64,000 bases of DNA from Spirosoma panaciterrae DSM 21099 (lineage in GTDB: Bacteria; Bacteroidota; Bacteroidia; Cytophagales; Spirosomataceae). Both the position numbers and the translations under genes were made by a program. Of this stretch, positions 8,845 through 28,204 are shown in pieces (the first letter of the stretch is position 1; each line of letters opens with the position of its first letter). The stretch lies in contig NZ_KB893184.1 of the NCBI RefSeq assembly GCF_000374025.1, positions 310,001-374,000 of the forward strand, given 5' to 3'. The notes below the pieces were generated by a model, which did no database searches, was not told the DNA's origin, and saw only the letters and a program-made list of their open reading frames with translations.

Positions 8845-8963
8845 TATCTGTTCGTTAAATAGTTGAATCGGACATGGTTTGCCAGCCGAAGTGGTGTTTG
8901 GTGAATGACTATCCCCACCCGGTTTATGGGCGGGGATAGCTTTAGAAACCTGTGATAATACCC

Positions 8964-10361
8964 TTATCGAGCCCAGGGTAACTGATTGACTTTTCGCCCA
9001 ATGGCATAGCCCATCCGAAGGCCCTCTTCGCAGTCCATCCGGTAATGCACCCCCAGTACGACACGTGAGTAGGCATTTTCCTGAGCCATTTCATAAAAAC
9101 TATTGAAGCTTCTGGGAGTACCATTAAATTCGGTTCGCCCTTCATGGCACCGATCGGTCAGGGCATAGGCCGCTCCATAGATGTCGGTAAGGACTTCGGC
9201 AGCAGCGGCACCAAAGCACGAATGCCCGGATGGATAGGCCGGAAAGGGCGGGGTAACACCAATCATAATGCTGATGGGATTATTCAGCCGCGTTCGCCAG
9301 GTTGGATCGATCGTCCGCTGGATATACGTAATTGGTCGTTCCACATTATAGATGTATTTGGAATTCCAGCAGGCTACCCCTACGTCGCTGAGGCCCATGC
9401 CCACCTTGGCAAAGGTATACACGGCCTTATCGAGCGGGACCTTTTCCTTCCGAATCACCTCTCTGGCAACGGCAATCCAGCGTCCGGCAGGTTCAAACGT
9501 TAACTGATAAATATCGTCGCTCCAGAATTCACCAATCCACTTTTCTTCGCTGGTCAGGGGAGTAGTTGCCGTGTAAATTTCCAGTCCCTGGGCAAATAGC
9601 GTCGATTTTATGTTTGTGCTGTAATTCAGTGGTTCTTTGGCTATTTTGTCGGTTTCACTGGCCACAAACGTCCTGACTTTTCCCCAGTAGGGCAGCAGCG
9701 CCCGGCTATAATCGGGCGCGGTAGGTTGCCATTTGCCGACACCCGTTGGTGGAATATAATCGGCTGGCTGATTGCGGAGGTAAGCCCCGTCGCCCGCTAG
9801 GTCCGTTTTGGCATAAGCGATCACAGCCGTAGCCACATCCAGACCAAACTTTCTGGATCGGTTGAGTTCATCAGCATCCCCAGGACCGCCCGTTAGTTTT
9901 GTATGGAGCGAGTCGATTTTAGCCTTATCCTTGTCGGCGATATGAGGAAAGAAGCCTTTCATCATCTGGTAGTAAGACTCGTTCAGGGCTACCTCCCAGC
10001 GGTAGGTTTTACCGGCTTCGGGCCTGGGGATGCTAAGACCGGAAAATTTGTTTGCTATGGACTGGTAATTGGCTGAACCGGGCACTACGGTTTCATAAGC
10101 AGCCAGGCCGATATACGCCAGGGCCCGGGCGGCTACCGGCGGGCGATAACCAGGCGCATATCGATCGATAATCAAAAACAGATCCATCCACTGTAGGGAT
10201 ACGGAGGCATCCGTAGTGGATGCGGTGGCTTCGGGCACTACGTCCTGTTTGGGGGATTGGCAGGCCAGCGCCACTGCGATACAGAAACAGATTACGCAAT
10301 AGGAAATAGCCCTTCCTGTGCGGGAGGGCACTCGTGTTGACGGATGTATACAGGTGTTCAT
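8964..10361 (-). CDS. Vanadium-dependent haloperoxidase / PAP2-superfamily lipoprotein (copy 2)
   Basis: A 465-residue protein with an N-terminal hydrophobic stretch ending LAC (Cys34), so probably a lipoprotein. The full signature is present: Lys335-x6-Arg342-Pro343, Pro-Ser-Gly-His 377-380, and Ser432-Arg433-x5-His439-x3-Asp443. It shares its whole layout with the adjacent downstream copy, indicating an old tandem duplication. The two differ in anchoring (lipidated versus secreted). Substrate unknown. Confidence 0.82.
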   Translation of the reverse strand: MNTCIHPSTRVPSRTGRAISYCVICFCIAVALACQSPKQDVVPEATASTTDASVSLQWMDLFLIIDRYAPGYRPPVAARALAYIGLAAYETVVPGSANYQSIANKFSGLSIPRPEAGKTYRWEVALNESYYQMMKGFFPHIADKDKAKIDSLHTKLTGGPGDADELNRSRKFGLDVATAVIAYAKTDLAGDGAYLRNQPADYIPPTGVGKWQPTAPDYSRALLPYWGKVRTFVASETDKIAKEPLNYSTNIKSTLFAQGLEIYTATTPLTSEEKWIGEFWSDDIYQLTFEPAGRWIAVAREVIRKEKVPLDKAVYTFAKVGMGLSDVGVACWNSKYIYNVERPITYIQRTIDPTWRTRLNNPISIMIGVTPPFPAYPSGHSCFGAAAAEVLTDIYGAAYALTDRCHEGRTEFNGTPRSFNSFYEMAQENAYSRVVLGVHYRMDCEEGLRMGYAIGRKVNQLPWAR

Positions 10362-12704: not shown

Positions 12705-13346
12705 ATGAACATAAGCCTGAACTACTTACAGGAAACCTTTAAAGGACAGTTTGAATACGCTTTGCTTGACGATCTGGCTAAAGTTGGCCAGCAGAAAATA
12801 GTACCCACAGGAGCGTACCTGATCCGGCCCGGCGAGTTCATTCGTTCGGTTCCCATTATTATTCGGGGGTCGGTCAAAATCCTGCGCCCCGATCAGGAGG
12901 GTCGCGAAGCGTTGCTCTATTACCTGGGCGGGCTGGATGCCTGTGCCATGTCGCTTACCTGCTGCCTGGGCAGCCGGCGCAGTGAAATTACGGCCGTTGC
13001 CGAGGAAGAAACCGAACTGATTGCCATACCTGTCGATAAAGTAGATGAATGGCTATGCCGCTATTCGACCTGGAAACAGTTTGTGTTTCAGACCTATCAG
13101 AAACGGTTCGACAATCTGTTGACGACCATCGATGAGGTTACTTTTCATAAACTGGACGAACGGCTACTGACCTATCTTCAGAAAAAAGTACAGAGTTGCC
13201 AATGCCGCGAACTAACGATTACCCACGAAGAAATTGCCAATGAACTGGCTACCTCCCGGGAGGTAATCTCGCGCTTGCTCAAACAACTCGAAAAAATGAA
13301 TAAACTTAAGTTGCAACGGGGAAAAATTGAGATGGTGGGTGCTTGA
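12705..13346 (+). CDS. Crp/Fnr-family transcription regulator, likely master regulator of the sulfur island
   Basis: A 213-residue protein with an N-terminal cyclic-nucleotide-binding-like beta-barrel (about 15-115), a dimer helix, and a C-terminal winged helix. The recognition helix reads SREVISRLLKQLE. Arg185, Glu186 and Arg190 match the Arg-Glu-x3-Arg set with which E. coli Crp reads GTGA/TCAC half-sites. The residues that bind cAMP in Crp are not evident. Cysteines 80, 86, 87, 118, 165 and 167 are unusual; Cys80 with Cys86-Cys87 may sense sulfide, persulfide or redox state (inference). At least seven palindromes of the right type follow within 15 kb. Confidence 0.88.
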   Translation: MNISLNYLQETFKGQFEYALLDDLAKVGQQKIVPTGAYLIRPGEFIRSVPIIIRGSVKILRPDQEGREALLYYLGGLDACAMSLTCCLGSRRSEITAVAEEETELIAIPVDKVDEWLCRYSTWKQFVFQTYQKRFDNLLTTIDEVTFHKLDERLLTYLQKKVQSCQCRELTITHEEIANELATSREVISRLLKQLEKMNKLKLQRGKIEMVGA

Positions 13347-13377: not shown

Positions 13378-13421
13378 GTAACAATTATCACGGAAAGCCT
13401 TCTGGCCATGTGGTTGTTTTG
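13378..13421 (+). promoter_or_regulatory. Crp-like operator and promoter of tauE-MBL/rhodanese unit
   Basis: GTAACAATTATCAC at 13378-13391 is a GTRA-N6-TCAC palindrome inside TGTAACAATTATCACGGAA. A -7-like box TTGTTTTG lies at 13414-13421. The operator centre is 36.5 bases before the last G of the box, the same as at five other units. Because the box overlaps an earlier in-frame ATG (13410), the real start must be the later ATG at 13440. Confidence 0.75.
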
Positions 13422-13439: not shown

Positions 13440-14243
13440 ATGACCACAATTCAACTAATTGGCTTTTCTGCATCTATTTTCATTGGCATCAGCCTCGGGC
13501 TGATTGGAGGAGGAGGGAGTATCCTGACACTTCCCGTTCTGGTCTACATGATGGGGATCAACCCTGTTCTGTCTACGGCCTATTCGCTATTTGTTGTAGG
13601 CACTACATCGTTGGTTGGCTCGGTTAATTACATGCGAAACGAGCAGGTTAATTACCGGGCGGCCTTTGTTTTTGCCATACCTTCTTTTCTGGCTGTTTTC
13701 TTAACCCGCAAATACCTGGTTCCGGCCATTCCCGATCCGGTGTTTACCACGGCAAGCTTCGCCCTTAGCCGGAATGTAGCCATCATGCTGTTTTTTGCGC
13801 TGGTTATGCTGGCTGCTTCGCTGTCGATGATTCGGGACAAAAAAAAGGAGACCAGCGCCGAAACAGACGCCGTACAGTTCAACTTACCCCTGATTGCTCT
13901 CGAAGGGGCACTGGTAGGTACGCTGACGGGGATTGTGGGCGCTGGTGGCGGGTTTCTGATTATTCCGGCGCTGGTGTTGTTGGCGCGACTGCCTATGAAA
14001 ATGGCGGTTGGAACCTCACTGCTCATCATTGCGGCCAAATCATTAATCGGGTTTCTGGGCGATTTGTCCAACATGCAGGTCGACTGGCCGTTCTTACTCG
14101 AATTCACGGCTCTGTCGGTAGTAGGCATTTTTGTGGGGTCCTATCTGTCGCGGTATGTGCCGGGTGAGAAACTTAAAAAGGCCTTTGGCTGGTTTGTACT
14201 CATGATGGGCGTGTATATCATTGCTAAGGAGCTGCTTTTTTAA
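13440..14243 (+). CDS. TauE/SafE-family sulfur-compound transporter
   Basis: A 267-residue inner-membrane protein with about eight helices. The two family repeats are visible: GISLGLIGGGGSILTLPVLV near the N-terminus and TGIVGAGGGFLIIPALVLL in the middle. The family exports or imports small sulfur anions (sulfite, sulfoacetate, taurine-like). The start was moved to 13440 because the promoter box covers the earlier ATG. It is followed after 34 bases by the MBL-rhodanese gene, so they share one transcript under the Crp-like operator. Confidence 0.9.
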   Translation: MTTIQLIGFSASIFIGISLGLIGGGGSILTLPVLVYMMGINPVLSTAYSLFVVGTTSLVGSVNYMRNEQVNYRAAFVFAIPSFLAVFLTRKYLVPAIPDPVFTTASFALSRNVAIMLFFALVMLAASLSMIRDKKKETSAETDAVQFNLPLIALEGALVGTLTGIVGAGGGFLIIPALVLLARLPMKMAVGTSLLIIAAKSLIGFLGDLSNMQVDWPFLLEFTALSVVGIFVGSYLSRYVPGEKLKKAFGWFVLMMGVYIIAKELLF

Positions 14244-14277: not shown

Positions 14278-15699
14278 ATGACCATGAACATAGAACAGAT
14301 TTATACAGGTTGCCTCGCGCAAGGGGCTTATTATATTGAAAGCCAGGGCGAAGTAGCCATTATTGATCCACTCCGGGAAGTGAAACCGTATATCGAACGG
14401 GCCGAACGGGCAGGGGCTACCATTAAATATGTGCTGGAAACCCATTTCCACGCCGACTTCGTGTCGGGGCACCTCGATCTGGCCAAACAAACCGGCGCCA
14501 CTATCGTTTACGGTCCCAACGCCAAAACCGGCTTCGAAGCCTACATTGCTCAGGATGGGGAAGAACTGCCGTTGGGAAATGTGAAAATTCGGGTGTTGCA
14601 TACACCAGGGCATACGATGGAATCGACCTGTTATCTGCTGGTCGATGAGCAGGGCCACGAAAAGGCCTTGTTCAGTGGCGATACGCTGTTTATTGGTGAT
14701 GTTGGTCGCCCCGACCTGGCTCAGAAATCCGACCTGACCATGGATGATCTGGCGGGTTATCTGTTCGATTCACTTCGTACCAAAATCATGACCCTGCCCA
14801 ACGATGTGATTGTGTATCCGGCACATGGGGCTGGCTCGGCCTGTGGCAAAAACATGAGCAAGGAAACCACCGACACGCTGGGCAACCAGAAACTATTCAA
14901 CTATGCCCTACGGGCTACCATGACCCGCGACGAATTCATTCAGGAAGTAACCGACGGGCTGCTGGCTCCTCCCAAATATTTTCCGCAAAATGTACGGATG
15001 AATAAGGAAGGGTATGAAAGCATCGATACGGTATTGGACCGGGGAGCGCAACCGCTTAGCCCGGAAGCCTTCGAAGCGGCTGCCAATGAAACGGGGGCGG
15101 TGGTGCTCGATGTGCGTTCGGCGCAGGCATTTGCGAAGGGCTTTATTCCGAACTCGATCAACATTGGGCTGGGTGGGCAGTTTGCGCCCTGGGTAGGGGC
15201 GCTGGTTCCCGATGTTCGGCAGGAGCTTCTGCTGGTGTGCGATCCCGGTACCGAACAGGAAACCCTGACCCGGCTGGCGCGCGTCGGATACGACCAGGTG
15301 CTGGGGTATCTGGAAGGTGGTTTCGGGGCCTGGGCAACCAGTGGTAAAGAAGTGGATACGATTGCATCGATTTCGGCCGATGAACTGGCTGACCGTCTCC
15401 AGCAGGGACCCATTTCGGTGATCGACGTTCGGAAGCCGGGCGAATTTACGGCTGAGCACGTCGATGCTGCGAAGAACGTTCCGCTCGATTACATCAGTGA
15501 GAACATGGCTGAGTTTCCTAAAAACGAACCGTTCTACATTCATTGTGCCGGCGGCTACCGATCCATGATGGCAGCATCCATTCTGAAATCGCGCGGCTAC
15601 GATAATGTGATCGATGTGGCTGGGGGCTTTGGCGCCATTCAGAAAAGCGGACGTATCCACACAACTGATTACGTTTGCCCAACCACGCTGAAAAAATAG
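14278..15699 (+). CDS. MBL-fold persulfide dioxygenase-like protein fused to two rhodanese domains (copy 1)
   Basis: A 473-residue cytoplasmic protein. The N-terminal ETHE1/Blh-like domain (1-235) carries HFHAD (His56, His58, Asp60), His112, Asp135 and His183 as metal ligands. It is followed by rhodanese 1 (265-360), with Cys321 in a degenerate loop, and rhodanese 2 (365-465), with active Cys423 in HCAGGYRS. The family oxidises glutathione persulfide to sulfite and passes sulfane sulfur. It is co-transcribed with tauE and has its own terminator. A second ATG two codons in is an equally good start. A close paralogue is at 25815-27227. Confidence 0.93.
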   Translation: MTMNIEQIYTGCLAQGAYYIESQGEVAIIDPLREVKPYIERAERAGATIKYVLETHFHADFVSGHLDLAKQTGATIVYGPNAKTGFEAYIAQDGEELPLGNVKIRVLHTPGHTMESTCYLLVDEQGHEKALFSGDTLFIGDVGRPDLAQKSDLTMDDLAGYLFDSLRTKIMTLPNDVIVYPAHGAGSACGKNMSKETTDTLGNQKLFNYALRATMTRDEFIQEVTDGLLAPPKYFPQNVRMNKEGYESIDTVLDRGAQPLSPEAFEAAANETGAVVLDVRSAQAFAKGFIPNSINIGLGGQFAPWVGALVPDVRQELLLVCDPGTEQETLTRLARVGYDQVLGYLEGGFGAWATSGKEVDTIASISADELADRLQQGPISVIDVRKPGEFTAEHVDAAKNVPLDYISENMAEFPKNEPFYIHCAGGYRSMMAASILKSRGYDNVIDVAGGFGAIQKSGRIHTTDYVCPTTLKK

Positions 15700-15796: not shown

Positions 15797-15840
15797 GTAA
15801 CAATTGTCACGGATTGTGGTCAACGAGCTATCTACTTTTG
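15797..15840 (+). promoter_or_regulatory. Crp-like operator and promoter of DUF983 gene
   Basis: GTAACAATTGTCAC (15797-15810) is followed by a perfect Bacteroidota -7 box TACTTTTG (15833-15840). The operator centre is 36.5 bases before the end of the box, a class II activator position. This is the best combined example in the window. Confidence 0.82.
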
Positions 15841-15895: not shown

Positions 15896-16321
15896 ATGTT
15901 AAAGGGAAGCAAACTCTATAGCATTCTTTTCAATAAATGCCCACGTTGCCAGGAAGGCGATTTTTTTGTGAGCAAAAGTGCGTATAACCTGAAGCAGTTC
16001 GACAAAATGCACGAAACGTGCAGCCATTGTCATCTGCGTTATTCGCCGGAACCAGGATTTTTTACGGGTGCCATGTATGTGAGCTATGCCTATTACGTAG
16101 CCTTTATCATCAGCTCATTTGTCCTCTTTTATGCCATACTGGACATCAATCTGGATTATTATCTGGTTGTCCTGCTGCCATCGCTTATTATTCTGACTCC
16201 TTTCTTCTTTCGGCTTGCCCGGCGAACCTGGATTAACTTTTTTGTGGATTATCGACCCGAACTAACCAAACCAGAGGCAAACCCGGTGAAAGCAACAGCC
16301 CATTCGGAGGTGTTGCCATAA
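15896..16321 (+). CDS. DUF983 membrane protein
   Basis: A 141-residue protein. A zinc-ribbon-like N-terminus has CPRC (Cys15, Cys18) and CSHC (Cys42, Cys45). Two membrane helices follow (about 58-80 and 85-108), then a cytoplasmic tail. This is the DUF983 layout; its biochemical role is unknown. In other bacteria it is often near respiratory or stress genes. Here it is a single-gene unit under a Crp-like operator, which ties it to the sulfur/redox regulon. Confidence 0.88.
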   Translation: MLKGSKLYSILFNKCPRCQEGDFFVSKSAYNLKQFDKMHETCSHCHLRYSPEPGFFTGAMYVSYAYYVAFIISSFVLFYAILDINLDYYLVVLLPSLIILTPFFFRLARRTWINFFVDYRPELTKPEANPVKATAHSEVLP

Positions 16322-16376: not shown

Positions 16377-16820
16377 TCACGGATGAATAATGGCCCAGCC
16401 TTGCTGCTGACGGATAATCAGTTCGCCATTGCCGCTGGGCGTGTAGCCAATAAAAGGTAACATGTCGTCCTTGCTGATTTTGCGTTCCCGTAAGGTATTC
16501 TCACACTGAGCCAGCACAACGCCCTGTTTTTGCAGGTCTAGTAAGGTTTGTTCAAACGGGCTGCCTTTTTTCAGGGCTACCACGCCACCACCATGTACGA
16601 CGAGTTCGACCTCCAGTTTGCCTTTCAGCCGGGTGTCGTCCAAGGCATTCTGAATGTTTTTCAGAGTAGCTTTAATCTTTGATTCATCGTCAGTATTCAA
16701 CTGATATACTACCTGATAGGTTGATTTGGTGGCTTTGGCACCATGGAAATCAGGCTGAGCTACAACCGATTGAGCCAGAAACAGTACGAATGCCGTCAGG
16801 CCAATTGACAGATAATTCAT
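16377..16820 (-). CDS. Exported DsrE-family protein
   Basis: A 147-residue protein with a signal peptide (to about residue 21, VVAQ). The mature part has the DsrE/DsrF fold: YQVVYQLNTDDESKI, ELVVHGGGV, and Cys106 in AQCENTLRE, the position of the sulfur-carrying Cys in the family. Cytoplasmic relatives carry sulfane sulfur; this one should act in the periplasm. It shares a central operator with the divergent DUF2892 gene. A cytoplasmic relative with the same CENxLR motif is at 19896-20270. Confidence 0.85.
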   Translation of the reverse strand: MNYLSIGLTAFVLFLAQSVVAQPDFHGAKATKSTYQVVYQLNTDDESKIKATLKNIQNALDDTRLKGKLEVELVVHGGGVVALKKGSPFEQTLLDLQKQGVVLAQCENTLRERKISKDDMLPFIGYTPSGNGELIIRQQQGWAIIHP

Positions 16821-16871: not shown

Positions 16872-16945
16872 CGAAAGTATAGCACATAATCAGTTCGTTA
16901 TGTGATTTTTATCACGGAAGCAGCGGTACAGAAACCCGTACTTAG
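16872..16945. promoter_or_regulatory. Divergent promoter pair with central Crp-like operator
   Basis: GTGATTTTTATCAC (16902-16915) is a perfect GTGA-N6-TCAC palindrome. On the minus strand TACTTTCG (16879-16872) ends 36.5 bases from the operator centre. On the plus strand GTACTTAG (16938-16945), a weaker box, ends at the same distance. One operator thus appears placed to activate dsrE leftward and the DUF2892 unit rightward. Confidence 0.7.
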
Positions 16946-16961: not shown

Positions 16962-17177
16962 ATGAAAAAGAACATGGGTTCCGCTGACCGAATCATCCGG
17001 GTTATTGTTGCCGTTGTATTGATTGCCCTGTTTGCAACCAATGTACTGACGGGCACGTGGGGAATGATCAGTTTAGTCGTTGCTGGAATATTCATCGCTA
17101 CCAGCCTGGTTAGTACCTGTCCGTTGTATCTGCCGTTTGGCATCCGAACCAATCGAATCCGAAAGCACGCTAATTGA
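16962..17177 (+). CDS. DUF2892 (YgaP membrane-domain-like) protein
   Basis: A 71-residue inner-membrane protein. The start NMGSADRIIRVIVAVVLI is typical of DUF2892, with two helices (about 10-28 and 33-52) and a conserved Cys in STCPLYLPFGI. In E. coli YgaP this module is fused to a rhodanese; here it is free-standing and first in a five-gene unit with thioredoxin. A role in moving or relaying reduced sulfur at the membrane is inferred from context. Confidence 0.88.
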   Translation: MKKNMGSADRIIRVIVAVVLIALFATNVLTGTWGMISLVVAGIFIATSLVSTCPLYLPFGIRTNRIRKHAN

Positions 17178-17186
17178 GAGGAACGA

Positions 17187-17435
17187 ATGGAAACCTTATT
17201 AAAAAAATGGGATGTCATGCGGCTGGTCCGGTTGGTAGCTGGAATCCTTATTATCGGGAGTGCCTTTGTCGACCGTCAGCCTTTACTGGGGCTTATGGGG
17301 GGGATACTGCTGCTGCAAAGTCTGCTGAACGTAGGCTGTAGCGCGGCTGGTTGTGGTATGCCCCGGCAAAAGCATTCCACTAATGTCAAGGCCGATAAAC
17401 CGCAGGACGAGATACCGTATGAAGAAGTACATTAA
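17187..17435 (+). CDS. Small YgaP-like membrane protein with Cys pair
   Basis: An 82-residue protein with two membrane helices (about 12-28 and 32-50), followed by Cys residues in NVGCSAAGCGMP and a charged tail. It resembles DUF2892-type proteins that carry a C-x4-C site. It starts 9 bases after the previous gene and its 3' end overlaps the next start, so it is translated as part of the operon. Function unknown; a sulfur or thiol relay is plausible. Confidence 0.75.
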   Translation: METLLKKWDVMRLVRLVAGILIIGSAFVDRQPLLGLMGGILLLQSLLNVGCSAAGCGMPRQKHSTNVKADKPQDEIPYEEVH

Positions 17436-17652
17436 CCGATGGCAGTGGATAGGAGCCTTGCTGGGTGCTGTAGCTGGCTTTGTGTACTGGCGTGAAGTTG
17501 GCTGTTTGACCGGCCATTGCCCTATTCAGTCGCACTGGCAGTCCATGAGCATCTGGGGGGCAGTCACCGGATTATTGCTGGGCGATATGCTTCATCAACT
17601 CGGCCAAAAACTGATGAACACCTATGGAAACGCAGAAAAAAGAAACGTTTAA
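17419..17652 (+). CDS. DUF6132-like small membrane protein
   Basis: A 77-residue protein. The start is placed at the ATG (17419) that begins MKKYINRWQWIGALLGAVAG; an upstream extension in the same frame would overlap the previous gene by 80 bases and is unlike the family. Two helices surround a GCLTGHCPI loop, as in DUF6132. It overlaps the previous gene by 17 bases and the thioredoxin gene by 29 bases. The CxxxxC loop between helices again suggests a thiol or sulfur role. Confidence 0.75.
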   Translation: MKKYINRWQWIGALLGAVAGFVYWREVGCLTGHCPIQSHWQSMSIWGAVTGLLLGDMLHQLGQKLMNTYGNAEKRNV

Positions 17653-17947
17653 TGATATTATCAAGGGCGACACGCCCGTACTGGTCGATTTCTCTGCCGA
17701 ATGGTGCGGTCCCTGCAAAATGATGGGCCCCATTCTGAAAGAGTTTGCCGAACACATGGGCGACCGGGTCCGGGTTCTGAAAATCGACGTCGACCAAAGC
17801 CCGGCCGCTGCCAGTACGTACCGGATTCAGGGCGTACCAACGCTGATCCTGTTTCGAAAGGGGCAGGTTGTTTGGCGGCAATCGGGCGTTATCGAAGCCC
17901 GGCAACTGGAATATGTGGTAAATCAGCTCGAAACAAATCATGTATAG
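17624..17947 (+). CDS. Thioredoxin
   Basis: A 107-residue classical thioredoxin with WCGPC (Cys28, Cys31), the cis-Pro motif GVPTLILF, and DFSAEW before the active site. There is no signal peptide, so it is cytoplasmic. It is encoded inside the DUF2892-DUF6132 unit with overlapping genes on both sides. It probably reduces the Cys residues or persulfides of the partner proteins (inference). Confidence 0.93.
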   Translation: METQKKETFNDIIKGDTPVLVDFSAEWCGPCKMMGPILKEFAEHMGDRVRVLKIDVDQSPAAASTYRIQGVPTLILFRKGQVVWRQSGVIEARQLEYVVNQLETNHV

Positions 17948-18542
17948 CCAGGAGTTTTGGAATGCTCGCTATCAGGACCCGGCTTATATTTATGGGGTTG
18001 AGCCCAATACGTTTTTTAAGGAATGCCTGGATGCTCTGAATCCAGGACGACTCTTGCTGCCCGCCGAGGGCGAAGGGCGCAATGCCGTTTATGCTGCTCG
18101 TATGGGCTGGGCTGTCGATGCCTTTGATCAGAGTATAATAGCTCGTGAAAAAGCCTTGCAGTTGGCAGCAGAGGCCTGTACCTCCATTCACTATGAGACC
18201 AGTACACTACAGGCATTTTCGGCACCAGCCAATACCTACGATCTGGTCGGGCTGATTTATGCGCATATCCCGTCGGCTGACCGTCGGCAGGTTCATCAAC
18301 AACTGGTTTCGACTTTAACGCCATCGGGCTATCTGGTGCTGGAAGCTTTTCATAAAGACCAGTTGGGGCGGGGGTCGGGCGGCCCTAAAGACCCGGATAT
18401 GCTGTATAACCAAGCTGAGTTACTGGAAGACTTTAGGGAATTGGAAATTCTGAAAATTGAGGAAACCAACGTTGAACTCCACGAAGGAGCGTATCATAAT
18501 GGCTTAGCCTGTGTAGTTCGGCTAATGGCCCGAAAAAAGTAA
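17940..18542 (+). CDS. SAM-dependent methyltransferase, TehB-like
   Basis: A 200-residue class I methyltransferase. The start YSQEFWNARYQDPAYIYGVEP and SAM site LLPAEGEGRNAVYAA are typical of the TehB/thiopurine-methyltransferase-like group, with DAFDQS as acidic strand 2 and LIYAHIPS as strand 4. The group methylates tellurite, selenite or thiols. In this operon a thiol or sulfide acceptor would fit, but that is inference. It overlaps the thioredoxin gene by 8 bases and ends the unit. Confidence 0.85.
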   Translation: MYSQEFWNARYQDPAYIYGVEPNTFFKECLDALNPGRLLLPAEGEGRNAVYAARMGWAVDAFDQSIIAREKALQLAAEACTSIHYETSTLQAFSAPANTYDLVGLIYAHIPSADRRQVHQQLVSTLTPSGYLVLEAFHKDQLGRGSGGPKDPDMLYNQAELLEDFRELEILKIEETNVELHEGAYHNGLACVVRLMARKK

Positions 18543-18650: not shown

Positions 18651-18694
18651 GTGACTATTGTTACGGAGTTTGAATTCTCGAAGCCAGACCTTTG
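18651..18694 (+). promoter_or_regulatory. Crp-like operator and promoter of tsdA-like gene
   Basis: GTGACTATTGTTAC at 18651-18664, followed by GGA as at the other sites. A -7-like box GACCTTTG lies at 18687-18694, ending 36.5 bases from the operator centre. Confidence 0.68.
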
Positions 18695-18776: not shown

Positions 18777-19847
18777 ATGCAAGCTAAAGATCATTTCGAC
18801 CAAACGATTCAATCCCTTCAGCGCACCCTACTGGTTTTGGCAGGGTTGCTGGTTATTACGGTTATTGCTACCGCTATGCTGATCGCATTCCAGGTTGGCT
18901 GGATCGATGCATCGGCAAAAAGGGAGGAGCCGATGGCTTCGTCCGGTAGCTCATCGACCGCCCTATCCGTGAAGACGGAGGAACCGCTTTGGCAGACACC
19001 ATCCGAGGCAAAGCTGGCCGCGCTTTCCAATGGCGACCTGATCCGCTATGGTAAAGAGTTGATCGCCAATACGGCTCTGTATCTGGGACCTATGGGTACG
19101 GTAATGCATACATCGAACGGAATGAACTGTCAGAACTGCCATCTTGACGCGGGCACGAAGCCCTGGGGAAACAACTACAGTACAGTGGCATCGACTTATC
19201 CAAAATTTCGGGCACGTTCGGGTAGGGTCGAAACCATCGTGAAGCGGGTAAACGATTGTTTTGAACGCAGCCTGAATGGTAAAGGTCTAGACAGTAATAG
19301 CCGGGAAATGAAAGCCATTGTCGCCTATATCCAGTTTCTGGGCGATGGCATTCCTAAAGGCAAAAGTCCTAACGGATCGGGTATCTGGAAAGTACCGTAT
19401 CTCGACCGTGCGGCCAATCCCGAAAAAGGCAGGCTGACGTATGAGCAGAAATGTGTGAGTTGCCACGGCACTACAGGGCAGGGCGTAGCAAAACCCGATG
19501 GGAGTGGTTATACGTTTCCACCGCTTTGGGGACCAAATAGCTACAACCAGGGAGCCGGGCTGTTTCGCCTTTCACGACTGGCGGGGTACATTAAGTCTAA
19601 TATGCCGCTGGGAGCTAGTTGGGATAAACCGCAATTGAGCGACGAGGAAGCCTGGGACCTTGCCGCCTTTATCAATTCGAGGCCCCGACCGGGCAAAGAT
19701 CTACGCAACGACTGGCCCAACCTGGCCAGCAAGCCCGTCGATCATCCTTTTGGGCCCTATGCCGACTCGTTTTCCGAAAAACAGCATAAGTTTGGACCGT
19801 TTAAACCCATTGAGGCTTACAAAAACGCGCATTCCGAATCGAAATGA
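18777..19847 (+). CDS. tsdA: Dihaem c-type cytochrome, thiosulfate dehydrogenase (TsdA)-like
   Basis: A 356-residue protein with an N-terminal membrane anchor (about 18-40) and a periplasmic part. Haem 1 site CQNCH (118-122) and haem 2 site CVSCH (226-230). Cys161 in VNDCFERSLNGKGL corresponds to the unusual Cys haem ligand that marks TsdA, and Met276 in SNMPLG fits the second haem. TsdA joins two thiosulfates to tetrathionate, or works in reverse. The unit is completed by a DsrE-family gene. The gene symbol rests on motif match only. Confidence 0.82.
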   Translation: MQAKDHFDQTIQSLQRTLLVLAGLLVITVIATAMLIAFQVGWIDASAKREEPMASSGSSSTALSVKTEEPLWQTPSEAKLAALSNGDLIRYGKELIANTALYLGPMGTVMHTSNGMNCQNCHLDAGTKPWGNNYSTVASTYPKFRARSGRVETIVKRVNDCFERSLNGKGLDSNSREMKAIVAYIQFLGDGIPKGKSPNGSGIWKVPYLDRAANPEKGRLTYEQKCVSCHGTTGQGVAKPDGSGYTFPPLWGPNSYNQGAGLFRLSRLAGYIKSNMPLGASWDKPQLSDEEAWDLAAFINSRPRPGKDLRNDWPNLASKPVDHPFGPYADSFSEKQHKFGPFKPIEAYKNAHSESK

Positions 19848-19895: not shown

Positions 19896-20270
19896 ATGGA
19901 TAGGACACCGGATAGGGGTAAAGGGCATAGAGTCATTTTTCAGTTTGTTTCGCCCGATGAGGCTTCGCAGCAAGCTTTGATCAGTAATCTGAAAAATCTG
20001 CTGGCCATATGGCCCGAGGCCGAAGTTGAAGTTGTGGTTCATGGCCCCGGTATTGACCTGATCACGGCTAGTAAGACACGCTACGCGCAGCCTTTGCAAC
20101 AATTTGTTGATCATCACGCGGTTCGGATTGTGGTGTGTGAGAATAGCCTGCGTAGTAAACAGTTGACACTTGAGGATATGCTTCCCTCCGTCGAAACGGT
20201 CCCCGTAGCCATCATCGAACTAATTCTGAAACAGGAACAGGGCTGGGCCTATATAAAGGCTGGAGTATAA
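19896..20270 (+). CDS. Cytoplasmic DsrE-family protein
   Basis: A 124-residue protein without a signal peptide. VIFQFVSPDEASQQAL, EVEVVVHGPGIDL and Cys81 in VVCENSLRSKQL give the DsrE/F sulfur-relay fold and its sulfur-carrying Cys position. It ends IIELILKQEQGWAYIKAG, very like the end of the exported DsrE protein at 16377-16820. It starts 48 bases after tsdA and so should be co-expressed. Confidence 0.82.
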   Translation: MDRTPDRGKGHRVIFQFVSPDEASQQALISNLKNLLAIWPEAEVEVVVHGPGIDLITASKTRYAQPLQQFVDHHAVRIVVCENSLRSKQLTLEDMLPSVETVPVAIIELILKQEQGWAYIKAGV

Positions 20271-21677: not shown

Positions 21678-21721
21678 GTAACAATTATCACGGAAAACGG
21701 GCGATTACCTGAAGAGTTTTG
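21678..21721 (+). promoter_or_regulatory. Crp-like operator and promoter of porin-YeeE unit
   Basis: GTAACAATTATCAC (21678-21691) is identical to the tauE operator, including the flanking TGT and GGAA. The box GAGTTTTG (21714-21721) ends 36.5 bases from the operator centre. Confidence 0.75.
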
Positions 21722-21747: not shown

Positions 21748-23136
21748 ATGATCGGACGTTTACTGGCTTTGGGATTGATGGCGCTGCTAACGACCAACGG
21801 GACGGCGGTATGGGCCAATCAGCCTGATACGCTGACCGCCAAACAGCAACGCTGGCTTGGGCGCGAGCGTTTTCCTATTCGCGCCCGGTCGTTTTTTATG
21901 GCAACGGATAATCAGGGCGAGTTGAGCGATGCGTATGCGTGGGGTGTTGGCGTAGGGCTTGGGTATCAGACCCCCCGGCTTTTCAACCACCTGACCGTAG
22001 GCGGAACGGCGTTTTTTAGCAAGAACCTGCTCTCGTCCGATCTGGCGGCCCGCGATTCGCAAACGGGTCAGCCAAACCGTTACGAAATTGGCTTGTTTGA
22101 TGGACAAAATCCAGGCAACCATGCGGTGCTTAGTCGACTCGAAGAGGTATATGCCCAGTATGTGTTCGGTAAAAAATCATGGATTACGCTTGGCCGTCAG
22201 CTACCTCGTAGTCCGTTTATTAATCCGCAGGATGGCCGTATGTCGCCCACGTTTGTAGAGGGCATCGTGCTGGAATGGAATGAGCGACCCAACACCCAGA
22301 TCCATGCCGAATACCTGACCCGAATCGCTCCCCGCTCGACCCTGGGCTGGTACACAATTGGCGAAAGTATGGGATTGTATCCGGTTGGGGTCGATGCTAC
22401 AGGTAAGGCTTCACAATATGCCGGAAACACGCAGTCGGCGGGTATTACGCAACTGGCTATAACCCAGAAAGTCGGCAAAGTAGTGCTTCAGCTTTGGGAT
22501 ACGCATGTACAGAATATTTTCAATATGACTTACACCCGAGCCGATCTGGGCATTCCAGCCGGAAAAAAGCGACAGGTTGTGGCTGGTCTTCAACTGGCTC
22601 GCCAATGGACGGTTGGGAACGGGGGAAACGACGAATCGGCCAAAGCTTACGACCAGCCCGGTAATCGCTCGCTGATTTTTTCGGGGCGGGTTGGCTACCA
22701 GACTACCCGCTGGACGTCTTACCTGAACGCGACGCGCATCACGGCCGAAGGGCGCTACCTGATGCCCCGCGAGTGGGGTCGTGACCCGTTTTATACATTT
22801 CTGATGCGGGAAAAAAACGAAGGATTTGGCGACCTGACCGCCGTGAATACTAATCTCTTCTTTACACCCACCAGCCACATCAAAGCCGAAGCAAGTTTTG
22901 GGTACTATCGGTTACCTGATGTAAAAAACAGTGTCTTAAACAAGTACGGAATGCCTTCCTATACGCAAACCAATTTAAGTTTTACCTACCGCTCCGGTAA
23001 TTTTCCGAACAGTTGGGATGTTCAACTGTTGTGGGTACTTAAAACCGACGTTGGCAATACCTACGACAACAACCGCTACGTCTATAATCGGGTAGGTATG
23101 CACCAGATCAATTTAATTCTCAACTATCGCTTATAA
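21748..23136 (+). CDS. OprD-like outer-membrane porin
   Basis: A 462-residue protein with a signal peptide (to about residue 24, VWA-NQ) and many alternating amphipathic strands ending in NLILNYRL, an outer-membrane beta-barrel end. The region FGKKSWITLGRQLPRSPFINPQDGR resembles OprD-family porins. It would pass small solutes. It heads a unit with the two YeeE/YedE halves under a Crp-like operator, so sulfur anions such as thiosulfate are plausible cargo (inference). Confidence 0.78.
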   Translation: MIGRLLALGLMALLTTNGTAVWANQPDTLTAKQQRWLGRERFPIRARSFFMATDNQGELSDAYAWGVGVGLGYQTPRLFNHLTVGGTAFFSKNLLSSDLAARDSQTGQPNRYEIGLFDGQNPGNHAVLSRLEEVYAQYVFGKKSWITLGRQLPRSPFINPQDGRMSPTFVEGIVLEWNERPNTQIHAEYLTRIAPRSTLGWYTIGESMGLYPVGVDATGKASQYAGNTQSAGITQLAITQKVGKVVLQLWDTHVQNIFNMTYTRADLGIPAGKKRQVVAGLQLARQWTVGNGGNDESAKAYDQPGNRSLIFSGRVGYQTTRWTSYLNATRITAEGRYLMPREWGRDPFYTFLMREKNEGFGDLTAVNTNLFFTPTSHIKAEASFGYYRLPDVKNSVLNKYGMPSYTQTNLSFTYRSGNFPNSWDVQLLWVLKTDVGNTYDNNRYVYNRVGMHQINLILNYRL

Positions 23137-23144
23137 ATCAATTC

Positions 23145-23717
23145 ATGGAGTTTATCGACCTTATCCGTAAGCCCTGGCCCTGGTATGTGGCCGGGCCACT
23201 GATCGGCCTCACAGTTCCGACGCTGTTACTCATCGGAAACAAATCGTTCGGTATTTCGTCGTCGCTTCGGCACCTATGCGCGGCCTGTCTGCCTGCTAAT
23301 ATTCCGTTTTTTCAATACAACTGGAAAAAAGAAATCTGGAATCTGTTTTTTGTAGCGGGCACTGTACTCGGCGGCTTTCTGGCGACCCATTTTCTGGAAA
23401 ACCCCGATGCGTTCCAACTGTCGGCCGCTACCGTCACCGACCTGAAGGCACTTGGCATCCGGGACTTTTCGGGCCTGATGCCCGCCGATCTGTTCGATAC
23501 GGTCAATCTGTTTACACTTAAAGGACTGGTATTTTTTGTGTTCGGTGGATTTCTGGTGGGTTTCGGCACGCGCTGGGCGGGTGGCTGTACGTCGGGCCAT
23601 GCCATTATGGGCCTATCGAACCTGCAATGGCCGTCGCTGATAGCTACCTGCTGTTTTATGGTTGGTGGTTTTACCATGACGCACCTGATTCTACCTCATT
23701 TAATGAAATTGTTTTAA
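23145..23717 (+). CDS. YeeE/YedE-family transporter, first half
   Basis: A 190-residue inner-membrane protein with about five helices. The diagnostic GFGTRWAGGCTSGHAIMG holds Cys148, matching the key Cys of the YeeE thiosulfate channel. Cys45 and Cys48 in HLCAACLP form an extra pair. The full-length YeeE duplicated fold is split here into this gene and the next. It starts 8 bases after the porin stop. Confidence 0.88.
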   Translation: MEFIDLIRKPWPWYVAGPLIGLTVPTLLLIGNKSFGISSSLRHLCAACLPANIPFFQYNWKKEIWNLFFVAGTVLGGFLATHFLENPDAFQLSAATVTDLKALGIRDFSGLMPADLFDTVNLFTLKGLVFFVFGGFLVGFGTRWAGGCTSGHAIMGLSNLQWPSLIATCCFMVGGFTMTHLILPHLMKLF

Positions 23718-23721
23718 CGAT

Positions 23722-24231
23722 ATGGGCTTTGATGCTCTCCTAAAAATCATGCAAAATACAGTAAGCCCAGATGCGTTGGTGTGCGATGCCCCCAACGATA
23801 TGAAAAAAACTGAGAGTGGTCTCGCCAATCTTAAGTACCTGGTGGTCGGGATTTTATTCGGCATTGTGTTCGTGAAAGCTGAAATCATTTCGTGGTTTCG
23901 TATTCAGGAAATGTTTCGGTTGCAAAGCTTCCATATGTACGGAGTCATTGGCTCGGCGGTAGTCGTCGGAATGGTTTCGGTATGGCTCATCAAACGGTTC
24001 GATATAAAAACGCTCTCGGGCGAACGGGTTGAGTTTCATCCCAAAACATTCAATAAAGGCCAGATTTACGGAGGGCTACTGTTTGGGTTGGGATGGGCCA
24101 TTACGGGAGCCTGCCCAGGCCCATTATTTGCCCAGATTGGTAGTGGCTACATGGTGGTCATTGCGACTTTGCTGAGTGCAGTGGCGGGTACGTGGGTATA
24201 TGGCTATCTGCGCGAAAAATTGCCTCACTAA
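23722..24231 (+). CDS. DUF6691 / YeeE-YedE second half
   Basis: A 169-residue membrane protein. KYLVVGILFGIVFVKAEIISWFRIQEMFR and WAITGACPGPLFAQIG (Cys131) are typical of DUF6691 partners of split YeeE. Starting at 23722 it begins 4 bases after its neighbour's stop. Family members often start at the position of the internal Met (23800), so the true N-terminus is uncertain by 26 residues. It should form a sulfur-compound channel with the preceding protein. Confidence 0.82.
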   Translation: MGFDALLKIMQNTVSPDALVCDAPNDMKKTESGLANLKYLVVGILFGIVFVKAEIISWFRIQEMFRLQSFHMYGVIGSAVVVGMVSVWLIKRFDIKTLSGERVEFHPKTFNKGQIYGGLLFGLGWAITGACPGPLFAQIGSGYMVVIATLLSAVAGTWVYGYLREKLPH

Positions 24232-24428: not shown

Positions 24429-24470
24429 AAAAGCGGGAGTATGTAACAATTGTCACATACTCCCGCTTTT
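24429..24470. promoter_or_regulatory. Crp-like operator nested in a 42-base palindrome before SQR gene
   Basis: GTAACAATTGTCAC (24443-24456) forms the centre of a larger inverted repeat with 16-bp arms (AAAAGCGGGAGTATGT and its complement). Only one pair, A24445/C24454, is mismatched. The 3' side runs into TTTTTATTG, so as RNA it would be a terminator-like hairpin. Unlike the other sites, no good -7 box ends at +36.5; the nearest T-run and G end one base off. Confidence 0.65.
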
Positions 24471-24510: not shown

Positions 24511-25716
24511 ATGACTACTCATTTTCAAGTACTGGTAGTGGGCGGGGGCAATGCCGGTTTGTCGGCGGCTGCTCAACTGCTTCACAAAGCTTCATCCTTA
24601 CAGCTGGGCATTATCGAGCCTTCGGCCAAACATTATTACCAACCCGCCTGGACACTCGTAGGCGCAGGGCAATTCGATATTCGGGATACGGAAAAAGATG
24701 AACAGGATTACGTTCCTGAAGGAGCCGAGTGGATCCGGGATGCGGTAACCGCCTTTCAGCCTGAGCAGAATCAGGTGACCTGCCAAAGCGGAGCCACTTA
24801 TACCTACGATTCGCTGGTAGTGGTGCCGGGAATTCAGTTGGACTGGGCCAAAATTAAAGGCTTCAGCGAAACACTGGGTAAAAATCAGGTATCGAGTAAT
24901 TACTCGTTTCAGACAGCCCCCTACACTTGGGAGCTAATCCGAAACTTTAAAGGGGGAGTAGCGGTATTTACCAACCCTGCCACACCCGTCAAATGTGGAG
25001 GGGCACCTCACAAAATCATGTATTTGGCCTGCGACTACTGGCGTAAAAATGGAGTGCTTGACAAAACAGAGGTTCATTATATATCGGGAGCTGGGGCCAT
25101 TTTTGCCGTAAAAGAGTTTGCCCGGACACTCGAAGGGCTCCTGAAACGGTATCGGATCAAAACCCATTTCCTTCAGAACGTTACGGAAGTGGATGGCCCA
25201 AATCACAGGATCTATTTTGAAGGCAAAGATGCCGATGGAAATGTGCAGAAGCAGTCGATACAATTCGATATGGCCCACATTACCCCTCCGCAGTCGGCCC
25301 CCGACTTCATAAAAAATAGCCCGCTGGCCGATCCGACACAACCACTGGGTTGGGTCGAGGTCAATAAATTTACGTTTCAGCATACGCGCTTTTCCAATGT
25401 GTTTGCCTGTGGAGATGTGAGCAATGCGCCTACCTCAAAAACGGGGGCTGCCATCCGCAAACAGGCACCAGTCATGGTCGATCATATACTGGCACAGCTA
25501 CACAAAACCCAGTCCAGTGCCAGGTACGACGGGTATACGGCCTGCCCCATCCCGACCGAATACGGCAAACTGATGCTGGCCGAATTCGACTACACGAACA
25601 AGCCTAAAATGACATTCCCGTTCGATCAGGCCGTGCCGCGCTGGACCATGTGGCTGCTGAAAAAGTATATGTTGCCCTGGCTCTACTGGCACCGAATCCT
25701 GACTGGAAAAGCCTGA
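24511..25716 (+). CDS. sqr: Sulfide:quinone oxidoreductase, SQOR (type II)-like
   Basis: A 401-residue membrane-associated FAD enzyme that oxidises sulfide to persulfide and reduces quinone. The FAD site VVGGGNAGLSAA (9-20), Cys162 in PVKCGGAPHKIMYL and Cys345 in YDGYTACPIP match the redox Cys pair of human SQOR, including the shared YDGYTSCP context and LAEFDY just after. FACGDVS (298-304) is the second FAD motif. It stands alone behind a nested operator. Its product feeds the MBL-rhodanese proteins on both sides. Confidence 0.92.
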   Translation: MTTHFQVLVVGGGNAGLSAAAQLLHKASSLQLGIIEPSAKHYYQPAWTLVGAGQFDIRDTEKDEQDYVPEGAEWIRDAVTAFQPEQNQVTCQSGATYTYDSLVVVPGIQLDWAKIKGFSETLGKNQVSSNYSFQTAPYTWELIRNFKGGVAVFTNPATPVKCGGAPHKIMYLACDYWRKNGVLDKTEVHYISGAGAIFAVKEFARTLEGLLKRYRIKTHFLQNVTEVDGPNHRIYFEGKDADGNVQKQSIQFDMAHITPPQSAPDFIKNSPLADPTQPLGWVEVNKFTFQHTRFSNVFACGDVSNAPTSKTGAAIRKQAPVMVDHILAQLHKTQSSARYDGYTACPIPTEYGKLMLAEFDYTNKPKMTFPFDQAVPRWTMWLLKKYMLPWLYWHRILTGKA

Positions 25717-25743: not shown

Positions 25744-25787
25744 GTAACATACATCACAGAAGCAGCCTCGCCTTTCAGCCAATTTTG
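25744..25787 (+). promoter_or_regulatory. Crp-like operator and promoter of MBL-rhodanese copy 2
   Basis: GTAACATACATCAC (25744-25757), flanked by T and AGAA. The box CAATTTTG (25780-25787) ends 36.5 bases from the operator centre. The box overlaps possible upstream starts at 25785 and 25788, so the start must be downstream, at 25815. Confidence 0.7.
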
Positions 25788-25814: not shown

Positions 25815-27227
25815 ATGAACGTAGAGCAAATTTATACCGGTTGTCTGGCCGAGGCTGCGTATTATATTGAGAGCAACGGTGAAGCGGCCATCATCGATCC
25901 CCTTCGTGAAACCAAACCGTACATTGAACGGGCGGCTGCTGATGAGGCCACGATTAAATACATTTTTGAAACACACTTCCACGCCGATTTCGTATCGGGC
26001 CACCTCGATCTGGCGGCCAAAACCGGGGCTACCATCGTTTTCGGCCCAACGGCACAGCCCGGCTATACGGCGCATGTGGCTAAAGATGGCGAAGAATTCT
26101 CGGTAGGGAGCGTGAAAATTCGGGTACTCCACACGCCGGGGCATACGATGGAGTCATCGACGTTTTTACTGATTGACGAGAATGGGAAAGAATCAGCCAT
26201 TTTTACGGGTGATACCTTGTTTATTGGCGATGTAGGCCGCCCCGACCTGGCCGTTAAAACCGATCTGACCCGCGAAGATCTGGCGGGGTATCTGTACGAT
26301 AGCCTGCATACGAAAATCCTGACTCTACCCGACGATGTGACTGTTTATCCAGGGCATGGTGCTGGCTCGGCCTGTGGCAAAAACATGAGCAAAGAAACCA
26401 TCGACACGCTGGGAAATCAGAAACGGTTCAATTACGCCCTGCGCGCTCGGTCGAAACAGGAATTTGTGAAGGAAGTCACTACCGGCCTGATGCCCCCTCC
26501 GCAGTACTTCCCGAAAAATGCTGTGCTCAACAAAATGGGTTATGGGCAGGTCGATGAGGTGATTCAACAGGGTACTCAGGCGCTGTCGCCAGCCGCGTTT
26601 GAAGCAGCCGCCAATGAGGTTGGGGCTTTGATGATCGACGTACGCGCTGCTCAGGAATTTGCAAAAGGATTTATTCCAAACTCGATCAATATTGGCCTGG
26701 AAGGGCAGTTTGCCGGGTGGGTCGGTACACTGGTGCCCGATCTGAAACAACCGATTCTGCTCATTTCGCCCGAGGGGAAAGCCGAAGAAGCCGTACTACG
26801 ACTGGCACGGGTAGGCTACGATAATTGCATTGGTTATTTGAAGGGTGGGTTTGCCACCTGGCAGGCCGAAGGCCGTGAAGTCGATACGGTTACGTCTGTT
26901 TCTGCCGGGACATTTGCCGAACGCTATGCGCAAAATCCCGACTTACCCGTACTCGATGTTCGGCGTAAAAGCGAGTTTGATTCAGAGCATATGGTAGGGG
27001 CCGAGAATTTGCCGCTGGATTATCTGAACGACAATATGGCTCGGATCGACCGAAGCCAAACGTATTACGTTCACTGTGCCGGAGGCTATCGTTCAATGGT
27101 GGCGATCTCAATCCTGAAAGCACGCGGGTTCTCTAACCTGATCGATGTAGCAGGCGGGTTTGCGGCCATCAAGCAAACCGGCAAACTGCCCGTTACTGAT
27201 TACGTTTGTCCAACTACGCTTCTTTAA
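25815..27227 (+). CDS. MBL-fold persulfide dioxygenase-like protein fused to two rhodanese domains (copy 2)
   Basis: A 470-residue paralogue of the 14278-15699 protein, aligned from MNVEQIYTGCLAEAAYYIES. Metal ligands are in HFHADFVSGH, HTPGHTMES, GDTLF and PGHGAGS. Rhodanese 1 has lost its Cys (LLISPEG where copy 1 has LLVCDPG). Rhodanese 2 keeps it in VHCAGGYRS. The start at 25815 is chosen because the -7 box covers the upstream candidates. A terminator follows, then an OsmC gene. Both copies should work on SQR-made persulfide. Confidence 0.93.
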   Translation: MNVEQIYTGCLAEAAYYIESNGEAAIIDPLRETKPYIERAAADEATIKYIFETHFHADFVSGHLDLAAKTGATIVFGPTAQPGYTAHVAKDGEEFSVGSVKIRVLHTPGHTMESSTFLLIDENGKESAIFTGDTLFIGDVGRPDLAVKTDLTREDLAGYLYDSLHTKILTLPDDVTVYPGHGAGSACGKNMSKETIDTLGNQKRFNYALRARSKQEFVKEVTTGLMPPPQYFPKNAVLNKMGYGQVDEVIQQGTQALSPAAFEAAANEVGALMIDVRAAQEFAKGFIPNSINIGLEGQFAGWVGTLVPDLKQPILLISPEGKAEEAVLRLARVGYDNCIGYLKGGFATWQAEGREVDTVTSVSAGTFAERYAQNPDLPVLDVRRKSEFDSEHMVGAENLPLDYLNDNMARIDRSQTYYVHCAGGYRSMVAISILKARGFSNLIDVAGGFAAIKQTGKLPVTDYVCPTTLL

Positions 27228-27827: not shown

Positions 27828-28133
27828 CTAGTTCAAATTCCGCCAGCTACCGGCATCGTGTACATTGGTTAGGCCCTGACTGGATAAGAAAGCTTTGGCG
27901 CGGGCACTCCGCATGCCTGAAGCGCAGCAGACTACAATCGGTTTCTGATAGCTTTTGACTTTGTTCAGTTTCGTCTCAAGCTGGTCCAGTGGAATGTTTA
28001 CGGCACCTTTGGCATGACCTCCGGCAAATTCACTCGCTGAGCGAACATCAACAATAACGGCTCCCTGTTCCAGCACGTCCTGAAGCTGGGTATTGCCCGA
28101 ACCGCCAAATACTGATTTTAATAAATTTATCAT
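27828..28133 (-). CDS. Single-domain rhodanese
   Basis: A 101-residue cytoplasmic sulfurtransferase. The start is set at ATG 28133 (MINLLKSVFGGSG); an upstream extension would run through the operator. The active loop is Cys70-Ala-Ser-Gly-Met-Arg75, with an extra Cys69 just before; IVDVRSASEFAGGHAKGAVNIP is the classical N-terminal part. It would carry sulfane sulfur between SQR, MBL-rhodanese proteins and acceptors. It has its own Crp-like operator. Confidence 0.92.
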   Translation of the reverse strand: MINLLKSVFGGSGNTQLQDVLEQGAVIVDVRSASEFAGGHAKGAVNIPLDQLETKLNKVKSYQKPIVVCCASGMRSARAKAFLSSQGLTNVHDAGSWRNLN

Positions 28134-28190: not shown

Positions 28191-28204
28191 GTGATAAATA
28201 TCAC
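28191..28204 (-). promoter_or_regulatory. Crp-like operator before rhodanese gene
   Basis: GTGATAAATATCAC is a perfect GTGA-N6-TCAC palindrome ending 58 bases before the rhodanese start. At the standard distance on the minus strand the sequence is AAATTCA, a poor -7 box, so promoter geometry is not confirmed here. The divergent side reaches the 3' end of the usp gene, not a start. Confidence 0.6.

Follow-up and report, generated by a model that had tools for sequence, protein, structure and literature searches.

A cysteine-bearing Crp/Fnr-family regulator as a candidate persulfide-responsive activator of a sulfide-oxidation island in Spirosoma panaciterrae

Which genes does a Crp/Fnr-type protein control, and which signal does it read, when its cyclic-nucleotide domain carries a group of cysteines and its gene stands next to a group of sulfur genes? 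The question is raised by the gene at 12705..13346 (+ strand, ATG start) of the window, i.e. the whole stretch of 64,000 nucleotides from Spirosoma panaciterrae DSM 21099 that was analysed. The gene was delimited as an open reading frame and characterised by Pfam, alignment and a structure model. Its product of 213 amino acids has a cNMP_binding domain at residues 33-116 (E 1.3e-9) and an HTH_Crp_2 domain at residues 153-209 (E 2.7e-9), and PF00027, PF13545 and PF00325 all score above their cut-offs, as expected for a member of the Crp/Fnr superfamily. The AF2 model (pLDDT 91.7) places a helix at residues 121-165; in structure comparisons both Foldseek and VIA-align matched CRP and FNR, with Foldseek also matching PDB 3dv8. 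The recognition helix, TSREVISRLLKQLE, contains R185, E186 and R190 (i.e. R185-E186-x3-R190), while cysteines occupy positions 80, 86 and 87, all inside the cNMP domain, and further positions 118, 165 and 167. To this extent the sequence-only reading, which had seen a Crp-family regulator with a Crp-type helix and with Cys80, Cys86 and Cys87 in its sensor domain, is confirmed. The NCBIfam CRP equivalog is not reached (49.7 against a cut-off of 266), nor is the NCBIfam Fnr model (23.3 bits against 228), and the N-terminal Fe-S cysteine cluster of FNR-type proteins is absent, residue 80 being the first cysteine of the protein. The CsoR, ArsR and NtrC-type folds (those of CstR, SqrR/BigR and FisR) do not apply either, Pfam and the fold both being Crp/Fnr.

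Conservation of the cysteines was computed over a family alignment of 165 rows, drawn from 80 family-genome regions and 80 named loci. In the family-genome part, 84 of the 104 matches, down to E 2.8e-30 and including the window's own protein, were aligned; of the 20 outside the alignment, L028, inspected separately, has Cys80 but Gly86, and the other 19 are mostly 30-41% identical or partial, with one, in G105, at 59%. The named loci are 80 of 584 relatives and range from Spirosoma to Flavobacteriia, Sphingobacterium and Prolixibacteraceae; at L164 no row for a homologue passed the filters. Cys80 is kept in all 165 homologues, being one of ten exceptionless columns, and Cys86 is frequent (141/165), whereas Cys87 is found in 132, only in Bacteroidota, and lost in 33. 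The cluster that had been called unusual is therefore real, but it is the hallmark of its own family, and its three members are not equal. Of the 24 homologues that miss Cys86, 11 have Cys80 as their sole cysteine, which means that a Cys80-Cys86 bond cannot be universal and that, if all members work alike, Cys80 must suffice in these 11. Cys87 was rejected as the key residue, as it is missing in those 33 homologues and in all 13 proteobacterial relatives (see below), and so were Cys118, Cys165 and Cys167, which are present in only 37-40 of the 165. None of 44 Crp/Fnr paralogues, taken from four family genomes, has a cysteine at position 80; this control represents 44 of 82 PF00027 matches, after exclusion of long proteins, family members and unfetched entries, and with one 159-aa protein skipped.

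The genes next to the regulator are those of an apparent sulfide-oxidation island. It includes a TauE/SafE-type exporter (13440..14243, +), for which the ATG at 13440 was taken as start because an upstream GTG at 13410 would fall in the promoter, and a first MBL-fold/rhodanese protein (14278..15699, +), by resemblance of the persulfide dioxygenase/sulfurtransferase type (PDB relatives 3tp9 and 3r2u). These are followed by a DUF983 gene (15896-16321), a DsrE/DsrF-like gene (16377..16820, -) and, divergent from the latter, a group made up of a gene for a YgaP-like TM protein, a pair of small ORFs and a thioredoxin gene (16962..17947, +). Further on lie genes for a TsdA/SoxA-like cytochrome c (18777..19847, +), a second DsrE-like protein (19896..20270, +), an OprD-like porin (21748-23136, +) and, within the same stretch of 21748..24231, two Sulf_transp proteins (YeeE/YedE and DUF6691; 23145-23717 and 23722-24231, +), then a sulfide:quinone oxidoreductase of the mitochondrial type (sqr, 24511..25716, +; 6mp5, E 2.5e-109), a second MBL-fold/rhodanese protein (25815..27227, +) and a single-domain rhodanese (27828..28133, -). 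An OsmC gene is also part of the island. Directly behind the thioredoxin gene, at 17940-18542, lies a SAM-dependent methyltransferase with weak similarity to TehB, which could methylate sulfide or thiols. Outside the island, at 7420-10361, two adjacent minus-strand genes give, from their translations, the impression of phosphatase/haloperoxidase-like motifs.

Such neighbours are not peculiar to this genome. Genes for MBL-rhodanese, TauE, SQR or YgaP occur in 124 of 160 homologue loci versus 0 of 40 paralogue loci. None of these four markers is near the regulator in the other 36; in 20 of the 36, for which neighbours were listed (20 proteins scanned), YeeE/YedE was present in one locus and no common theme was apparent (HAD, ABC, SDR, TetR and others). 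The pattern that the earlier reading proposed to look for, cysteines conserved only beside SQR or MBL-rhodanese genes, thus holds as a family-wide tie, but it fails to the letter, because Cys80 is also present in members without a linked sulfur gene. In a branch with an ARVV helix (L093, L095, L096, L098-L101 and L110), which has Cys80 and Gly-Gly at 86-87, all eight loci contain at least one sulfur neighbour; a palindrome scan and a search for the -7 element gave nothing convincing as an operator for this branch.

Candidate operators were found before several of these genes. The window holds 13 matches to GTRA-N6-TCAC versus 2.88 expected, a number reached in none of 100 shuffles. Eight operator positions (GTRAY-N4-RTCAC) lie within 14.8 kb of the island, where about 0.1 would be expected, and with 60 distinct genome-wide sites the Poisson value of this clustering is about 5e-13 (calculated by hand). 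The putative operators are GTAACAATTATCAC before tauE (13378..13391, +; centre to ATG -55.5), GTAACAATTGTCAC before the DUF983 gene (15797..15810, +), the palindromic GTGATTTTTATCAC between the divergent dsrE-like and ygaP-TM genes (16902..16915, no strand assigned), GTGACTATTGTTAC before the TsdA/SoxA-like gene (18651..18664, +), GTAACAATTATCAC again before the porin and YeeE/YedE genes (21678..21691, +), GTAACAATTGTCAC again before sqr (24443..24456, +), GTAACATACATCAC before the second MBL-rhodanese gene (25744..25757, +) and the palindromic GTGATATTTATCAC upstream of the rhodanese gene (28191..28204, -). Two further GTRA-N6-TCAC matches, at 26466 and 38748, both lie inside coding sequence and are probably due to chance. 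All five copies of the tight operator GTAACAATNRTCAC in the 8,127,746-bp genome lie in the sulfur island, and the wider palindrome GTRAYNNNNRTCAC is found 73 times genome-wide versus 72 for its reversed control. A role as global catabolite regulator was rejected on these grounds, the tight site being confined to the island and the wider pattern being at chance level across the genome.

The same type of site emerged from an unbiased scan of all 4-mer palindromes upstream of sulfur genes, made without prior choice of a motif. For regulators with an SREV helix the top word was GTGA-N6-TCAC (61 versus 0.3 in shuffles; 205 regions, 63 loci), and for those with SRVV it was GTAA-N6-TTAC (65 versus 1.7; 119 regions, 55 loci). 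Site densities per kb upstream of sulfur genes, versus the rest of the same loci, were 0.909 versus 0.023 for SREV and 1.815 versus 0.095 for SRVV. Predicted operators thus precede sqr, MBL-rhodanese, tauE and rhodanese genes in the window and are enriched family-wide, and an Arg-Glu-x3-Arg helix together with GTGA-N6-TCAC sites is the combination expected of CRP-type recognition; the proposal that the Crp-type helix fits the local operators is upheld at the level of these predicted sites, to which we infer that the regulator binds directly. The change from Glu186 to Val goes with a change from G to A at the third half-site base, the base pair read by Glu181 of CRP, with 73 concordant and 4 discordant of 77 loci. 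As independent covariation, however, this correspondence of Glu/Val with GTGA/GTAA had to be discarded: it amounts to one independent phylogenetic contrast only, so that the match of helix and half-site is a consistent story rather than a statistical proof. Many SREV-group operators carry GGA behind TCAC (G at +1 in 69%, A at +2 in 78%), e.g. at 13392-13394 of the window, which is perhaps an extended contact.

Sites were also sought at MBL-rhodanese genes away from the regulator. This was done in 17 genomes in which the retrieved locus of the regulator has no MBL-rhodanese gene, with 20 genomes without a detected regulator as control; loci were examined for 30 of the 40 MBL-rhodanese matches. 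A site within 400 nt was present at 11 of these 30 loci versus 0 of 22 in the control genomes (Fisher p 0.0012). Three of these 11 loci cannot count as remote: another homologue, 36% identical, lies 2 kb from L302, and the regulator is 11-12 kb from L306 and L307. The difference is 10/29 versus 0/22 without L302 (Fisher p 0.0027), and 8/27 versus 0/22 without all three (Fisher p 0.0056). Two of the 22 controls (L332 and L337) have a full operator with a -7 element about 900 nt upstream and tauE in the same loci; in these genomes the regulator may have been lost or may reside on a plasmid, as does the copy on pSLIN02 in S. linguale. That plasmid copy (L205) comes with a tauE-MBL-YeeE cassette and an adjoining Tn3 transposase, and a genome of the same genus (G039; L039 and L044) contains three complete regulator genes and one fragment, from which the system looks mobile.

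The narrowness of this predicted target set bears on the possibility of a thiol-redox regulator, in which peroxide, disulfide stress or oxygen would simply oxidise Cys80 and Cys86 to a disulfide, the sulfur genes being just one output of a redox response. The family offers precedents in CprK and Lactobacillus FLP; the profile matches of the protein include CprK structures, it has vicinal as well as Cys-x5-Cys thiols, and a thioredoxin is encoded inside the island. Nevertheless, the targets look sulfur-specific, with all five copies of the tight operator in the island and with paralogue loci devoid of sulfur genes, and members with Cys80 alone retain sulfur neighbours in several loci, which makes this explanation unlikely.

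Most operators also stand at a fixed distance from a promoter element. Among 121 SREV-group operators (52 loci), 85 have the TTTG of TAnnTTTG, the -7 element of Bacteroidetes, at exactly +22, and among 65 SRVV-group operators (37 loci) 39 do; every other offset between 0 and 45 accounts for at most 5 operators. A -33 TTG is not conserved, offsets of -3 to 9 giving at most 2/121 and 5/65. Within the window TTTG is at +22 in five of nine operator orientations, namely before tauE (TTGTTTTG, 13414-13421, +, exactly 22 nt past the operator), DUF983 (TACTTTTG), the tsdA-like gene (GACCTTTG), the porin gene (GAGTTTTG) and the second MBL-rhodanese gene (CAATTTTG); the dsrE-like gene and sqr have variants at this position (TACTTTCG and the weak -7-like CATTTTTA, respectively), and the ygaP-TM and rhodanese operators have no TTTG there. 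None of 24 off-island sites has TTTG at +22 on either side. Since transcription starts a few bases past the -7 element, the operators would be centred near -41, i.e. where CRP and FNR sit when they act as class II activators, and from this geometry we infer activation rather than repression.

A repressor that leaves the DNA upon persulfidation, like CstR or SqrR/BigR, would also be conceivable, given that an operator near -41 would overlap or border on the position of a -33 box and that the known persulfide sensors SqrR and CstR repress (PMC9774590). A repressor, though, needs no fixed phase, and the 22-nt distance is fixed in two groups in the absence of a conserved -33 TTG, which fits an activator and leaves repression quite improbable.

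What, then, became of the cAMP pocket? For its positions we take the residue numbering of CRP (Ile70, Gly71, Glu72 and Arg82) as reference. In the alignment with E. coli CRP, Cys80 is opposite Ile70, Ala81 opposite Gly71 and Met82 opposite Glu72. Position 82 is M, L, I, V, A or H in the 165 homologues but never E (Met in 132, otherwise mostly Leu or Ile), and position 92, corresponding to Arg82 of CRP, is Arg in only 12 of 165, the window's protein among them. The pair Glu72 and Arg82 that marks a CRP cAMP cassette is therefore not retained, which bears out the earlier remark that cAMP contacts are not evident. As read from the confident structure model, the phosphate-binding cassette is turned into a cysteine-bearing helix (residues 81-89).

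A protein of this kind could instead be a sensor of haem, of a metal or of a small anion, Cys80 serving as the ligand; the signal would then be, for instance, sulfide bound to a thiolate-ligated haem, Cu/Zn, sulfite or thiosulfate. Cys80 is indeed invariant, and CooA, a haem-containing Crp/Fnr protein whose haem thiolate lies in the same region as Cys80, is a profile relative. In CooA, however, Cys and His are spaced by two residues, and a His two residues after Cys80 is not conserved among the 165 homologues (Met82 in the window's protein); nor does the cassette offer any second conserved His or Cys ligand, position 82 being the Met, Leu or Ile described above and position 86 being variable, so that such a sensor has a low probability.

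The cysteine motif extends beyond the Bacteroidota. Plasmid records gave 51 matches, of which 20 were opened. Cys-x5-Cys is present in 13 of 13 proteobacterial relatives (DSCILTASC, ESCVLTTAC and similar). Sulfur genes are found directly downstream in nine of the 13 loci (two of Thioclava, four of Paracoccus, two of Ruegeria and one of Chelativorans), in varying sets of DUF2892, YeeE, DUF6691, MBL-fold, sulfurtransferase and SulP genes; in the Thiothrix and Azospirillum loci DUF2892 is the only one of these genes, and the Tritonibacter and P. aminovorans records carry no annotation. At most 50 nt past the regulator gene, 11 of the 13 have GTGA-N5-TCAC (TTAC in Thiothrix), with a spacer one base shorter than in Bacteroidota. 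Azospirillum has one such site, before its DUF2892 gene, and none was found in P. aminophilus. In L198, L202, L353, L354, L358, L359 and L362 the proteobacterial sites are 13-mers (N5), as opposed to the 14-mers (N6) of Bacteroidota, with identical half-sites. A proteobacterial -10 element at offset 22 is suggestive only. A clostridial relative, from Pusillibacter, keeps Cys-x5-Cys and has no annotated sulfide-oxidation gene within 7 kb. Both Thermus relatives, as well as a Fusobacterium match on a shorter, unannotated stretch, are without the cysteines in the alignment, and the Cys-less Thermus proteins adjoin FeoAB/hemerythrin or nitrate-reductase genes. That the cysteines merely have a structural role, in a regulator that is constitutive or follows another ligand, can draw on the invariance of Cys80 even without a linked sulfur gene (invariance alone being no proof of reactivity), but it is very unlikely in view of the paralogues, 0 of 44 of which have a cysteine at this position, and of a motif that accompanies sulfur operons in two phyla, the Cys-less Thermus relatives having other neighbours.

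Following these results, the protein is a real, conserved and dedicated regulator, and the interpretation that we favour, and regard as reasonably probable, is that of a dedicated class II activator of the sulfide/persulfide-oxidation island that senses persulfide or polysulfide via Cys80, usually together with Cys86. Of this interpretation, the sites and their geometry have strong support, and the signal is the proposed part. In the mechanism envisaged, SQR would oxidise sulfide to persulfide or polysulfide, which would be the signal and would attack Cys80, with Cys86 as its usual partner, at the former cAMP phosphate-binding cassette. The resulting Cys80 persulfide, or a Cys80-Cys86 di- or polysulfide, would reorganise the cassette helix (81-89) and shift the protein to its DNA-binding dimer state. 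The homodimer would then bind GTGAY-N4-RTCAC palindromes, centred near -41, at promoters with TAnnTTTG but without a conserved -33 TTG, and recruit RNA polymerase to the SQR, MBL-rhodanese, TauE, YeeE, DsrE, Trx, TsdA-like and rhodanese genes. Activation of these export, oxidation and sulfur-transfer genes would in turn lower the signal.

How does such a regulator relate to known systems? With E. coli CRP, which reads GTGA half-sites through the same recognition residues and activates from a class II position, it shares the fold, Arg-Glu-x3-Arg, the GTGA half-site and an operator centre near -41; it differs in that CRP has an intact cAMP cassette, against Met82 at the position of Glu72 and an Arg82 position that is not conserved here, and in that CRP is global, against a local set of sites here. 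The nearest solved relative is PDB 3dv8, a putative transcriptional regulator of Eubacterium rectale (profile E 1.5e-36), which has cysteines at positions 80 and 86 within DMCLLSASCIM but Ile in place of Cys87, at 26% identity. A similar gene set is that of the Staphylococcus aureus cst operon, where CstR controls TauE, MBL-rhodanese (CstB) and SQR. CstR, a CsoR-family protein, is an unrelated all-helical repressor, in contrast to the Crp/Fnr fold and activator-type promoter layout found here. According to PMC9774590, it senses persulfides through a dithiol, SqrR/BigR and FisR respond to sulfide or persulfide through a cysteine disulfide or tetrasulfide, and persulfide sensing is also described for OxyR, OhrR and LasR. 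SqrR/BigR (ArsR family) and FisR belong to other families, being repressors or, for FisR, an activator of sigma54-dependent transcription. MarR and PerR are named in titles of the literature retrieved. The nearest report is that of a Crp-like protein of A. baumannii that becomes persulfidated under sulfide (PMC7315123). Titles and the beginnings of abstracts in the open literature described no Crp/Fnr persulfide sensor, phrase matching being likely to miss 'Crp/Fnr', and neither did the passages of PMC8014003 that were retrieved; a search pairing the Fnr family with sulfide quinone gave no match.

The wider claim is that certain Crp/Fnr activators form a subfamily, shared between phyla, whose cAMP phosphate-binding cassette has been rebuilt as a Cys-x5-Cys trap for persulfide or polysulfide; it would be a main activator of the sulfide response in Bacteroidota, extend to Rhodobacterales plasmids and follow a fixed class II grammar. 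For this claim we see slightly better than even chances. If true, it would supply a code of regulator, operator and promoter for sulfide oxidation in Bacteroidota, apparently absent from the literature searched (titles, abstract beginnings and passages), as well as a testable case in which the exchange of one residue (Glu to Val) turns the GTGA half-site of a Crp protein into GTAA. It would also mean that this large superfamily of regulators includes a branch dedicated to the reading of reactive sulfur, at the site where CRP reads cAMP.
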